NCBI GenBank assembly: GCA_021789215.1
Contig: JAJYJS010000004.1
Location: forward strand, 62,001-126,000
From: Nitrospirota bacterium
GTDB taxonomy: Bacteria; Nitrospirota; Thermodesulfovibrionia; Thermodesulfovibrionales; JdFR-88
DNA: 64,000 bases
Direction: 5' to 3'
Part shown: positions 1 through 4,044 of the stretch, one piece after another
Layout of the letters: every line of letters begins with the position of its first letter
Numbering within the stretch: the stretch's first letter is position 1
Notes under the pieces: model-generated
Databases searched by the model: none
Seen by the model: the letters and a program-made list of their open reading frames with translations, nothing else
What the model was told of the DNA's origin: nothing
Made by a program: the position numbers and the translations under genes

Positions 1-581
1 TTCCCCCGCTCAAACGCCTTATTGCTGACAAGCGATGGGTCGGCCCCTTCGAGCACTCCGCCGGACTCTATCCGCTCCAGGTCCGCCGCGTCTCCAAGCC
101 CCTGCCCGACCGCCCACCTTGCCCCCTCGACCATCACCTTTTTAAGGTCCTCGGCCCCGAACCTGAGCTTGCCCTTGGAGCCCACCCCGGAGGGTATCTC
201 CTGATAGAGCATCGCCACAAGCTCCCTTAAACGCGGCATTACGTCTTCCCGCCTCAGATTGCTCCGGAGCAGGCGCACGCCGCAGTTGATGTCATATCCG
301 ACGCCGCCCGGCGATATTATCCCGTCTTCCAGCCTGAATGCCGCAACCCCTCCGATGGCGAACCCGTAGCCCATGTGTATGTCCGGCATGGCCATGGACG
401 CCTTCACAATGCCCGGCAGCATGGCCACGTTTACCACCTGCTGTATGGATTTTTCCTCCAGCCCGGCCTCAAGCATCTCATCCAGGTAGATGACGCCCTT
501 CACCCTCATGCCGGGCTGATATGTCTGCGGTATTTCAAGCTTGTATTCGTTTATCCTTTTTATCGCGGTCTGCACAGCCAT
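1..581 (-). CDS. rtcB: RNA-splicing ligase RtcB, N-terminal part (cut by window edge)
   Basis: RtcB joins RNA 2',3'-cyclic phosphate or 3'-phosphate ends to 5'-OH ends using GTP and Mn2+. The ORF track misses this gene because it runs off the left edge. Reading the minus strand from the ATG at 579-581 gives 193 residues starting MAVQTAIKRINEYKLEIP. The family motifs are present: PDIHMGYGFAIGGV near residues 66-79 and the metal-binding DINCGV (Asp97, Cys100). It lies 15 nt downstream of the archease gene, the usual partner, so the two probably form one operon. The C-terminal catalytic His is outside the window. Confidence 0.93.
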   Translation of the reverse strand, partial: MAVQTAIKRINEYKLEIPQTYQPGMRVKGVIYLDEMLEAGLEEKSIQQVVNVAMLPGIVKASMAMPDIHMGYGFAIGGVAAFRLEDGIISPGGVGYDINCGVRLLRSNLRREDVMPRLRELVAMLYQEIPSGVGSKGKLRFGAEDLKKVMVEGARWAVGQGLGDAADLERIESGGVLEGADPSLVSNKAFERG

Positions 582-596
582 CCCGCACACCTCTTT

Positions 597-1010
597 TCAG
601 ATATCAAAGATTACTTCCATGCGCCACTTGCCGTCCGTGTTCTCCACCTTCAGATTATGGAACGTGGCGGCCTTTATAAGCAGCCCCCTTGCGTGCCTTC
701 CGGGGTCGAAGGTCTCGCCATACACGGTGGCGCGTATCCTGTCCCCGCCAAGTCCGTCAATTTTAACCCTTTTCGCTATAAAACCGTATGCGTCGAACCT
801 GAAAACAAGCTCGTTAAGGAATCCCACGAGAAGGCCCTCCAGGGTATCGTTCTCGTATGTTATGGCCTGGGACTCTTTTTCCTCGACCTTGTCCAGGTCC
901 GTAATGAGGCTGAACATCCCCATTGCCGCGGAGGCAAAGGCGTCCTCCGCGCTTCCAGCCGCCACCCGTATCCCGGCGTCGCCTGATACGTCCAAGACCT
1001 CGTATCCCAT
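597..1010 (-). CDS. Archease, RtcB activator
   Basis: Archease (137 aa) speeds guanylylation and turnover of RtcB. It is small and acidic with the family's typical length. It begins MGYEVLDVSGDAGIRV, matching the metal-binding Asp-containing N-terminus of archease, and ends KWRMEVIFDI, matching the conserved terminal beta strand with its Asp. The gene sits directly upstream of rtcB with a 15-nt gap, which is the standard archease-rtcB arrangement and supports the call. No separate promoter was recognised. Several long plus-strand ORFs across this region are shadows. Confidence 0.9.
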   Translation of the reverse strand: MGYEVLDVSGDAGIRVAAGSAEDAFASAAMGMFSLITDLDKVEEKESQAITYENDTLEGLLVGFLNELVFRFDAYGFIAKRVKIDGLGGDRIRATVYGETFDPGRHARGLLIKAATFHNLKVENTDGKWRMEVIFDI

Positions 1011-1095
1011 AATGTTAAACTATCATGCGTGTATATGGCGGTCAAGGAAAGGGGCCTCGGATTGACTTGGCGCGGCCTTTCTGTTATTTTTAGTG

Positions 1096-1186
1096 AGGCA
1101 ATGGGGTTCGCCTTGGACCGCTCCGGCAATTTTTTAACCGGGGCTGATACTCCTACTCTCCGGCCGAAGGGGGAGTAGGTTTTTTT
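1096..1186 (+). ncRNA. Fluoride riboswitch (crcB motif) ahead of uspA
   Basis: The stretch reads GGCAATGGGGTTCGCC, then a short variable stem, then GCTGATACTCCTAC. This closely follows the crcB/fluoride riboswitch consensus as I recall it (GGCGATGGNGTTCGCC ... CTGATGACTCCTAC), with one base missing in the second block. The conserved CTCCTAC strand also forms the left arm of an intrinsic terminator (1152-1186). This is the arrangement of transcription-terminating fluoride switches: bound fluoride ties that strand up in the aptamer pseudoknot and permits read-through. The gene controlled is the uspA at 1240. Sequence match is direct; the switching direction is inferred from the family. Confidence 0.85.
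1152..1186 (+). terminator. Intrinsic terminator of the fluoride riboswitch
   Basis: CCTACTCTCC pairs with GGGGAGTAGG around an 8-nt loop (one T-G pair) and is followed by seven T residues. No plus-strand gene ends upstream, so this is a leader terminator. Its left arm overlaps the riboswitch consensus block, as expected for an expression platform. Confidence 0.85.
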
Positions 1187-1239
1187 ATGCCTGGAAAAGA
1201 AAAAAAGGATTAAAAAGAAAAGTGTGAGGAGGATGTGAG

Positions 1240-1662
1240 ATGCTGAGAAGGATGCTCGTCGCCTTCGACGGCTCGCCAAAGTCATACGAGGCCTTTGAAT
1301 ACACGGTGGCCATTGCCGGAGCGTGCAAGCTGCGTTCTGAGATTTTCGTCATCTCGGTGGCGCAGCCTCCGGAACCGATAGACTTCGTGGAAATGGACGA
1401 TATTGTCGAGGCGGCCTCGAAGCATTACGAGGCGCTTCAAAAGGAGCTTGAAGACAAGGCGCACGAAAAAGGCATACACATCCGTTCCAAAATAGCCGTG
1501 GGGCACCCGGCCGACCAGATCGTCAAGTTCGCGAAGGAAAAGCACTGCGACATGATAATCCTGGGGCAGAGGGGCAAGTCCACCATAGAGGGCTGGCTGC
1601 TGGGTTCGGTCTCCAAAAGGGTGGCCTCACACGCCCATTGCGCGGTAACCATAATCAAGTAG
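1240..1662 (+). CDS. Universal stress protein, UspA family
   Basis: A 140-aa single Usp domain. It has the N-terminal strand MLRRMLVAFDGSPKS with the conserved Asp and the ATP-binding signature GQRGKSTIEGWLLGSVSKRV (G-x2-G-x9-G-S type) near residues 107-126, ending in a beta strand AHCAVTIIK. A strong Shine-Dalgarno GAGGAGG precedes the ATG. The gene stands alone behind a fluoride riboswitch, so it is likely induced by fluoride. UspA-type genes are, as I recall, among the less common genes associated with this riboswitch class. The biochemical role in fluoride tolerance is unknown. Confidence 0.93.
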   Translation: MLRRMLVAFDGSPKSYEAFEYTVAIAGACKLRSEIFVISVAQPPEPIDFVEMDDIVEAASKHYEALQKELEDKAHEKGIHIRSKIAVGHPADQIVKFAKEKHCDMIILGQRGKSTIEGWLLGSVSKRVASHAHCAVTIIK

Positions 1663-1762: not shown

Positions 1763-3163
1763 ATGGTCCTCAAGCGGATCTCGTTCATTGAGCCAAATAC
1801 ACCCGGACGGCACGTCTTCAGCAAGATAAGGATACCGAGGCTGGGGGCGCTGCTGCTGGCCACAATCCTTAAAGAGCGGGGCTACGAGACAAAAGTCTTC
1901 CTTGAAGACCTGGCGGAGCCCGACTGGTCTTATATAGAAAATTCGGACCTGCTGTGCATATCGGCCATCACCAACACCGCCCAGCGCTCCTATATGATAG
2001 GGGCAAAGGCCAGGAAACTGGGCATCCCGGTTATCATGGGAGGGGCGCACCCCTCTTTCATGCCTGAAGAGGCCCTTCAACACTCGGATTACGTCGTCAG
2101 GCAGGAAGGTGACGAAAGCCTTCCCGAGCTTCTGAAATATCTCGAAACAGGCAAGCCGGACATTGCAACCATAGCCGGGGTCTCTTACTGGAAAAACGGC
2201 AGCATCGTCCACAACGAGCCCAGGCCTTTCATCTCCGGGCTGCTCAATGTGCCGATGCCCGATTTCTCGCTGGCGCACGGCTGGAGGCCCGGCGACGTAT
2301 ACCCCGTCTCAAGCTCAAGGGGCTGCCCATTCCAGTGCCGCTTCTGCTCTGTCATCCAGATGTTCGGGAAAAAATACCGCTTCCGCTCGGTTGAGGCAAC
2401 CCTTAAAGACCTCAAGTCCCTGAAAGGCACCGAAAAGAACGTGTTCTTTGTTGACGACAACTTCACGGCCCACAAGCCGAGGGCCAAGGCGATACTCAGG
2501 GGGATGCTGGCCGAGGGCATAAAAATGAGGTGGTCGGCACAGACAAGGGTGGATGTCGCAAAGGACCCCGAGCTGCTGAAACTCCTTGCCGATACGGGGT
2601 GCTCCAAGCTCTTCATCGGATTTGAGTCCATTAATCCAAAAACACTTGAGCTTTACAACAAGAAACAGAACCTGGACGAGATAAAGACCTGCATCCGCGA
2701 GGTGAACTCCTACGGGATAGGCATCCACGGGATGTTCGTGCTGGGGGCGGACACCGACGACGTGGAGACGATAAGGAACACCGCCAAATTCGCGAAGGTG
2801 CTGGGCACAGGCACCCTGCAATTCATGATGCTCACGCCTTATCCGGGAACCCCCGTGTACGCCGAATTCGAATCCCAGGGCAGGCTCCTGCACAAAGACT
2901 GGACAAAGTACGACGGCCTGAACGCGGTATTCCGCCCGGCCCTCATGAGCCCCGAGACCCTTCAAATGGAGACGCTTAAAGGGCTTGCCCGGTTTTATTC
3001 GTGGAAATATATATTCACTCATATGAGGAAGCTCGATTTCTACCACGCGGCAATAGGCATTTACGGCAAGAACTCCGTGCGCCTTGCCCTGAAAAAGGCG
3101 AAGGAATACTTCGCGGAGATGATCAAGACGGCAACCCCGGACGACCTGGGAAGACAAGTCTGA
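1763..3163 (+). CDS. B12-binding-type radical SAM protein
   Basis: A 466-aa protein with an N-terminal Rossmann-like cobalamin-binding-type domain (about 1-150, including SAITN and GGAHPSF) and a radical SAM domain. The [4Fe-4S]/SAM-binding motif CPFQCRFC (Cys188, Cys192, Cys195, CxxxCxxC) is visible. The canonical DxHxxG base-off cobalamin motif is not apparent, as in many members of this group. Such proteins are methyltransferases, cyclases or oxidoreductases acting on unreactive carbons in lipids, hopanoids, antibiotics or tetrapyrroles. The substrate cannot be read from the sequence, and neighbours give no pathway clue. Confidence 0.88.
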   Translation: MVLKRISFIEPNTPGRHVFSKIRIPRLGALLLATILKERGYETKVFLEDLAEPDWSYIENSDLLCISAITNTAQRSYMIGAKARKLGIPVIMGGAHPSFMPEEALQHSDYVVRQEGDESLPELLKYLETGKPDIATIAGVSYWKNGSIVHNEPRPFISGLLNVPMPDFSLAHGWRPGDVYPVSSSRGCPFQCRFCSVIQMFGKKYRFRSVEATLKDLKSLKGTEKNVFFVDDNFTAHKPRAKAILRGMLAEGIKMRWSAQTRVDVAKDPELLKLLADTGCSKLFIGFESINPKTLELYNKKQNLDEIKTCIREVNSYGIGIHGMFVLGADTDDVETIRNTAKFAKVLGTGTLQFMMLTPYPGTPVYAEFESQGRLLHKDWTKYDGLNAVFRPALMSPETLQMETLKGLARFYSWKYIFTHMRKLDFYHAAIGIYGKNSVRLALKKAKEYFAEMIKTATPDDLGRQV

Positions 3164-3226: not shown

Positions 3227-3573
3227 TGGTGGAGGCGGCGGGAGTCGAACCCGCGTCCGAAAGCACTACTCTCAAGCCTCTACATGCTTAGGCCATTTAT
3301 TTGAGTCTCGGCAAGCGCCATGCGAATAGCCGCGCCCGGCGCACGCCCATCCCCCGTTTGGTTTTCGTCTTCCGTCAGAGGGCCCTCCGGAAGCTTATCC
3401 TGCTGCTTGCGTCCTGCCGGGCCGCAGGCGCACCCGGAAAGACGTGCTGCTTTAATTAAGCAGCGAGTGCCAGTTCGTTGTTGGCGTTTGTAAGTGTTCC
3501 ACCTTTTTACGTGGTGATGGAGCCACGGCATGCCACCTGAGCCTCATAACCCCCGTCGAGACCTTTCGCCCCC
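3227..3573 (-). ncRNA. ssrA: Transfer-messenger RNA (tmRNA)
   Basis: tmRNA rescues stalled ribosomes with SmpB. On the minus strand the 5' end GGGGGCG pairs with CGCCTCC before ACCA at the 3' end, forming the tRNA-like acceptor. The T-arm GGGTTCGACTCCC type sequence is present. The internal reading frame encodes the tag ANNELALAA followed by TAA, TAA, in the position and style of a proteolysis tag ending in ALAA-like residues. The 5' region GGTCTCGACGGGGG is typical of tmRNA. Length is about 347 nt with an encoded CCA. It follows smpB directly and in fact shares one base with its stop codon. Confidence 0.95.
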
Positions 3574-4019
3574 TAACGACGGCCTTTGATGGCCCGCTCT
3601 ATCTGGCGGTTGGCCTCCTTTTCCCTGATGGCCTCCCGCTTGTCAAAGAGCTTTTTGCCCTTCGCAAGAGCTATTTCTATTTTAACATAGGGCCCCTTGA
3701 AATACATCTTGGTGGGGATAAGCGTGTAGCCCCTCTGCGTCATCCTGCCCTTCAGGCGCTCAATCTCCTTCCTGTTGAGGAGGAGCTTCCGGGTCCTGAG
3801 CGGGTCGTGGTTCATGATGTTTCCGTGGCTGTAAGGGCTTATATGGCAGTTAAGGAGGAACACCTCGGAGTCCTTCACTATCACATAGCTGTCCTTCAGG
3901 TTGGCCTTGCCCTCCCTGATGGACTTCACCTCGGTGCCAAGGAGGACGACTCCAGCCTCCAGGGTCTCCTCGATGAAATAATCGTGGTATGCCTTTCTGT
4001 TTTCAGCGACAGGACGCAT
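3573..4019 (-). CDS. smpB: SsrA-binding protein SmpB
   Basis: SmpB binds tmRNA and brings it to stalled ribosomes. The product has the family core [25 protein letters not shown], the KxxLxxSYV-type segment and a basic C-terminal tail ([24 protein letters not shown]) that inserts into the mRNA channel. The start is placed at the ATG giving [15 protein letters not shown] (148 aa). The track start is an upstream GTG five codons earlier; neither has a clear Shine-Dalgarno. The TAG stop overlaps the first base of the mature tmRNA, so smpB and ssrA are probably co-transcribed. Confidence 0.95.
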
Positions 4020-4044
4020 TGTTAATTTTAGCACAAAGAGGAGA

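Follow-up and report, generated by a model that had tools for sequence, protein, structure and literature searches.

The described systems closest to the locus considered here are the fluoride riboswitches collected under RF01734 and the operons that they control. In E. cloacae FRM, a fluoride riboswitch governs the ppaC-uspA-eno-gpmA-crcB-orf5249 operon, in which uspA is induced 120-fold by fluoride, and strains without uspA, crcB, or both show growth with fluoride (MIC 3,000 mg/L) (PMC5533749). After exporters, Na+/H+ antiporters are described as the next most common class of riboswitch-associated genes (PMC11139923). Hertz et al. 2024 (PMC11077080) assign position 42 (U17-G42 in B. cereus) to pair 1 of the aptamer pseudoknot; this pair is described there as having the most influence on function and as critical for switching, a wobble at pair 1 being needed for switching in their assays and a strengthened pair giving mostly read-through.

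The window, a stretch of 64,000 nucleotides from a Nitrospirota bacterium, carries an element homologous to these riboswitches directly before a universal stress protein gene (usp), in the order promoter-like site, aptamer, terminator, and usp. The element resembles RF01734 riboswitches in P1, P2, most of the pseudoknot, the linchpin pair, the overlapping terminator, and its placement at the transcript start, but differs from them in its sub-threshold score, in an A for G5, in the lack of position 42 and hence of pseudoknot pair 1, and in a terminator overlap limited to the linchpin U and the two final bases of the pseudoknot. Aptamer positions follow the T. petrophila numbering. The locus shares with the E. 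cloacae FRM operon a uspA-type gene downstream of a fluoride-riboswitch element, whereas that operon has six genes including crcB and the window has a lone usp.

The element and its expression platform

The features at and around the locus are as follows.

3-596, minus strand: N-terminal part of an RtcB-like RNA ligase gene, after the Archease gene (named by eye from the translation)
597-1010, minus strand: Archease gene (PF01951), divergent from usp
1062-1090, plus strand: promoter-like site, TTGACT-17-TATTTT, whose second hexamer is preceded by TG (consensus scan)
1097-1156, plus strand: divergent fluoride-riboswitch aptamer (RF01734 and R1 matches; pairs read from sequence)
1152-1186, plus strand: intrinsic terminator, a 10-bp stem (1152-1161/1170-1179) followed by seven T (sequence and terminator scan)
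1226-1232, plus strand: ribosome-binding-site-like GAGGAGG, 7 bases 5′ of the ATG (sequence)
1240-1662, plus strand: universal stress protein gene, 140 aa (PF00582)
1763-3163, plus strand: B12-binding radical-SAM protein gene, 100 bases 3′ of usp
3227-3573, minus strand: tmRNA gene (RF00023)
3573-4034, minus strand: SmpB-like gene, adjoining the tmRNA gene (by eye)

In a focused scan, RF01734 matches positions 1088-1162 over the full length of the model (1-64 of 64) with 26.6 bits and E = 1.5e-5, which misses the curated Rfam cut-off of 34 bits, and the fluoride element is absent from the output of a whole-window Rfam scan at the gathering threshold. When the same model is run over the source genome, the window element ranks first (E = 2.6e-5; runner-up 0.12). 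R1, a lineage model that covers the aptamer together with its terminator and was built from 24 related sequences with the window excluded, gives 40 bits and E = 1.5e-8 (runner-up within the window, 0.3), which places the element well above chance, and over the genome it again returns the window element as the sole credible match. These E-values and the uniqueness in the genome led us to reject chance similarity. The second-best R1 match, at G000:C28:7517, was rejected as a second riboswitch, lying inside an ABC-transporter permease-like reading frame; on the aptamer stretch itself, the Rfam sRNA families anti-hemB and Pseudomon-1 give weak matches far under their own cut-offs.

Descent of the element from a fluoride riboswitch is very likely on the strength of these model matches. 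The crcB-type aptamer blocks noticed in the preliminary description, GGCAATGGGGTTCGCC (1097-1112) and GCTGATACTCCTAC (1143-1156), are thus confirmed by both models, and its expectation of a hit to the Rfam fluoride covariance model is borne out by the E-value and by genome uniqueness, though not at the cut-off. Full RF01734 membership is not claimed because the element, when tested, falls below that cut-off and lacks both G5-C14 and pair 1 of the pseudoknot; that it works like a fluoride riboswitch is proposed as the best mechanism.

The promoter-like site lies 6 bases from the aptamer (median 7 in relatives), and the terminator, at -17.3 kcal/mol, is close to the median for 48 relatives (-16.4). 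Aptamer and expression platform are mutually exclusive, the terminator taking C1152 and C1153, the last two pseudoknot bases, together with the linchpin base U1154; in most relatives, the terminator stem additionally includes C44 and U45. The terminator itself is therefore present as first described, but of the CTCCTAC strand said to be shared with it, only CCTAC is common to the aptamer.

The usp gene, its relatives, and fluoride exporters

The product of usp matches PF00582 with 108.2 bits (E = 6.5e-31; cut-off 24 bits), carries the ATP-binding-type motif of the family, G-x2-G-x9-G-S, at residues 109-123 (read from sequence), and has TeaD (3hgm, E = 6e-13) as its closest solved structure. 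A second Usp is encoded in the genome (L056, G000:C13:12695-13114); it is 60% identical and has no riboswitch upstream. The preliminary description regarded the UspA-type gene as the only gene controlled: usp is indeed directly downstream, but "only" is uncertain because the radical-SAM gene follows 100 bases on and the window scan found no terminator-like site between the two. A promoter-like site lies in this gap at 1729-1756.

RF01734 exceeds its cut-off in 91 of 200 related genomes. Within the same order, 18 genomes have a riboswitch followed, about 1.3 kb downstream and in the same orientation, by a gene for a Usp homologue, with a reading frame (about 0.9-1.3 kb) in the interval; the intervening protein is a Na_H_Exchanger (PF00999) in G029 and is visibly homologous in G033 and G037. 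These riboswitch-antiporter-usp operons (G029, G022, G033, G037, and others) share with the window a homologous riboswitch and terminator, and their Usp proteins are 55-61% identical to that of the window (49-51% in a few), but the window has no frame between switch and usp. When 39 Usp proteins are placed in a tree, the window Usp and the fluoride-operon Usps share one side of a 97/92 branch, but the window Usp is outside the 99/98 clade that the operon proteins form; its paralogue from the same genome is on the other side of the branch. The riboswitch-usp pair would most economically be read as a riboswitch-antiporter-usp operon that has lost its antiporter. A deletion-scar comparison of the usp leader with four antiporter-usp junctions, over an A/G-rich stretch, gave p = 0.01, 0.06, 0.24, and 0.93.

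Since both the E. cloacae FRM operon (PMC5533749) and the antiporter-usp operons of the order provide precedent, fluoride control of a Usp is not new, and Usps in fluoride-riboswitch operons are widespread in this order; the lone arrangement, which in the preliminary description pointed to a poorly understood Usp role in fluoride stress, resembles a reduced antiporter-usp operon more than it suggests a new role. What is new is a single divergent switch placed directly on usp.

The statement that crcB and eriC exporters are absent locally extends to the whole assembly, which comprises 50 contigs and is 89% complete: it yields no CRCB match, no homologue of the antiporter of the relatives, and no fluoride-associated GTPase, and both of its CLC proteins resemble ClcA far more than the fluoride/proton antiporter CLC-F (L066, ClcA 3e-25 vs CLC-F 9e-12; L065, ClcA-type 7e-47 vs CLC-F 3e-8). 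Because of this level of completeness, the absences beyond the locus are suggestive only. The unusual part is a lone usp under the switch in a genome where neither an antiporter, a CrcB, nor a CLC-F-like exporter was found.

Two deviations in the aptamer and the predicted switch

P1 retains three pairs (G1097-C1112, G1098-C1111, and C1099-G1110), followed by an A1100.C1109 mismatch where relatives have G-C, so that G5 is replaced by A and the G5-C14 pair is broken. P2 is made of seven pairs (1120-1126 with 1138-1144), and the A1101/U1145 (A6/U38) and linchpin A1147-U1154 (A40-U48) pairs are kept. The pseudoknot (1103-1107/1149-1153) consists of five pairs rather than six, one of them G.U: G1103-C1153, G1104-C1152, G1105.U1151, G1106-C1150, and U1107-A1149. 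Position 42, the 3′ base of pair 1, is missing between 1148 and 1149, which leaves U1108 without a partner. The one-base gap reported earlier in the second block is therefore real; the G5-to-A change had gone unremarked.

Both deviations are confined to the window in the data at hand. Of the 66 distinct aptamers compared, only that of the window has A at position 5 and only it lacks position 42, G5 and position 42 being invariant in all 65 related aptamers. A pattern blind to both positions has matches in 57 of 396 phylum genomes, and among the matches listed, all but the window have a purine at 42. In exact-pattern scans, which more divergent variants would escape, the window is the only match of an A5 pattern, and a pattern without position 42 has no match across 84,980 species (genome_contigs), a collection that may not include the genome of the window; the latter pattern does match that genome.

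On balance, the element, very likely a divergent descendant of the transcriptional fluoride riboswitch that stands before antiporter-usp operons in related bacteria but here directly precedes usp, probably still responds to fluoride. As to fluoride binding, the direction of the response, and the job of the Usp, we infer the following scheme. Without fluoride, the linchpin and the 3′ portion of the pseudoknot would give way to the terminator stem, and transcription would end ahead of usp; when fluoride is present, the Mg-fluoride-bound aptamer would hold the pseudoknot and A1147-U1154, the terminator would fail, and usp would be made as part of protection against fluoride or acid stress. With pair 1 of the pseudoknot and one pair of P1 gone, this switch probably requires a higher fluoride level than those of relatives, or else responds less strongly than they do. 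This reading draws on the RF01734 and R1 matches, on a promoter-like site and a terminator placed as in relatives, with similar terminator strength, on the retained linchpin, A6/U38, P2, and five pseudoknot pairs, on the switches preceding antiporter-usp in 18 genomes, on the place of the window Usp beside fluoride-operon Usps (97/92), and on the fluoride induction of uspA in E. cloacae. Against it stand the score under the Rfam cut-off, the otherwise invariant position 42 and G5, with pair 1 called critical for switching (PMC11077080), and the occurrence in one genome, with no congener in which to look for conservation. The predicted probability of P1 before the pseudoknot strand is made is also weak (0.56, vs a median of 0.995 in relatives), and the MFE fold of 1092-1192, which cannot model a pseudoknot, favours a hairpin competing with P1. 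Of the preliminary description, the homology to the fluoride riboswitch and the direct usp target find support; control of usp by fluoride is likely but predicted only, because the element scores below the Rfam cut-off and a pseudoknot pair found critical in experiments is missing.

Without pair 1, the response could be reduced or the switch locked in its off state, and the main rival to a fluoride-responsive switch, which we regard as rather unlikely though not negligible, is a decaying riboswitch that no longer binds fluoride usefully and whose leftover terminator holds usp expression steady at a low level. Two altered positions that are otherwise invariant, the failure of the exact pattern to find a copy lacking position 42 elsewhere, the weak P1, and the lack of other fluoride genes found in the genome all fit decay, yet the terminator is strong and fully paired, and the promoter spacing, P2, the linchpin, and the greater part of the core have been preserved. 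Furthermore, the smaller terminator overlap might compensate for the loss of pair 1. If so, the element could be a working fluoride-riboswitch subtype with a five-pair pseudoknot, without pair 1 or G5, serving a bacterium that has no fluoride exporter and in which a lone Usp makes up the fluoride response detected, a bolder proposal that we consider doubtful. It is also improbable that the missing base, A5, or both are sequence or assembly errors in an ordinary fluoride riboswitch: the fragmented, incomplete assembly, the loss of a base beside an A, a common type of error, and the restriction of both changes to the window would agree with this, but two independent changes and a terminator of different register that still pairs resemble real divergence. 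A new subtype, with an altered core sensing another ligand, or fluoride with clearly changed affinity, is very improbable, since the absence of the exact position-42-less aptamer from the species scanned and usp as the only detected target are set against a single instance, with no conservation to indicate selection, and an adjoining Usp group that is the one found in fluoride operons.

As pair 1 is reported to be the key determinant of switching, a natural element without it provides a test of whether the pair is essential or is compensated by terminator overlap. Since usp is the only target detected, the part that the Usp plays in fluoride stress would be testable without exporters in the same operon.

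Other riboswitch targets among the relatives

In the window's own family, the riboswitches found precede, instead of antiporter-usp, crcB-like, dynamin-like GTPase, and hydrogenase-like membrane subunit genes (target names by eye, one crcB checked by Pfam). One genome, G005, has six RF01734 matches, and at L072 (G005:C48) a fluoride riboswitch lies 5′ of hydrogenase/complex-I-like membrane subunits. At L072-L074, L077, and L078 (G005, G006, and G007), fluoride riboswitches stand directly 5′ of dynamin-like GTPase genes, which are followed by ATPase-like and zinc-ribbon/HEAT-like genes (all by eye); these loci may represent a fluoride-linked membrane module. The same dynamin-like GTPase, again identified by eye, comes after antiporter-usp in G033 and G022.
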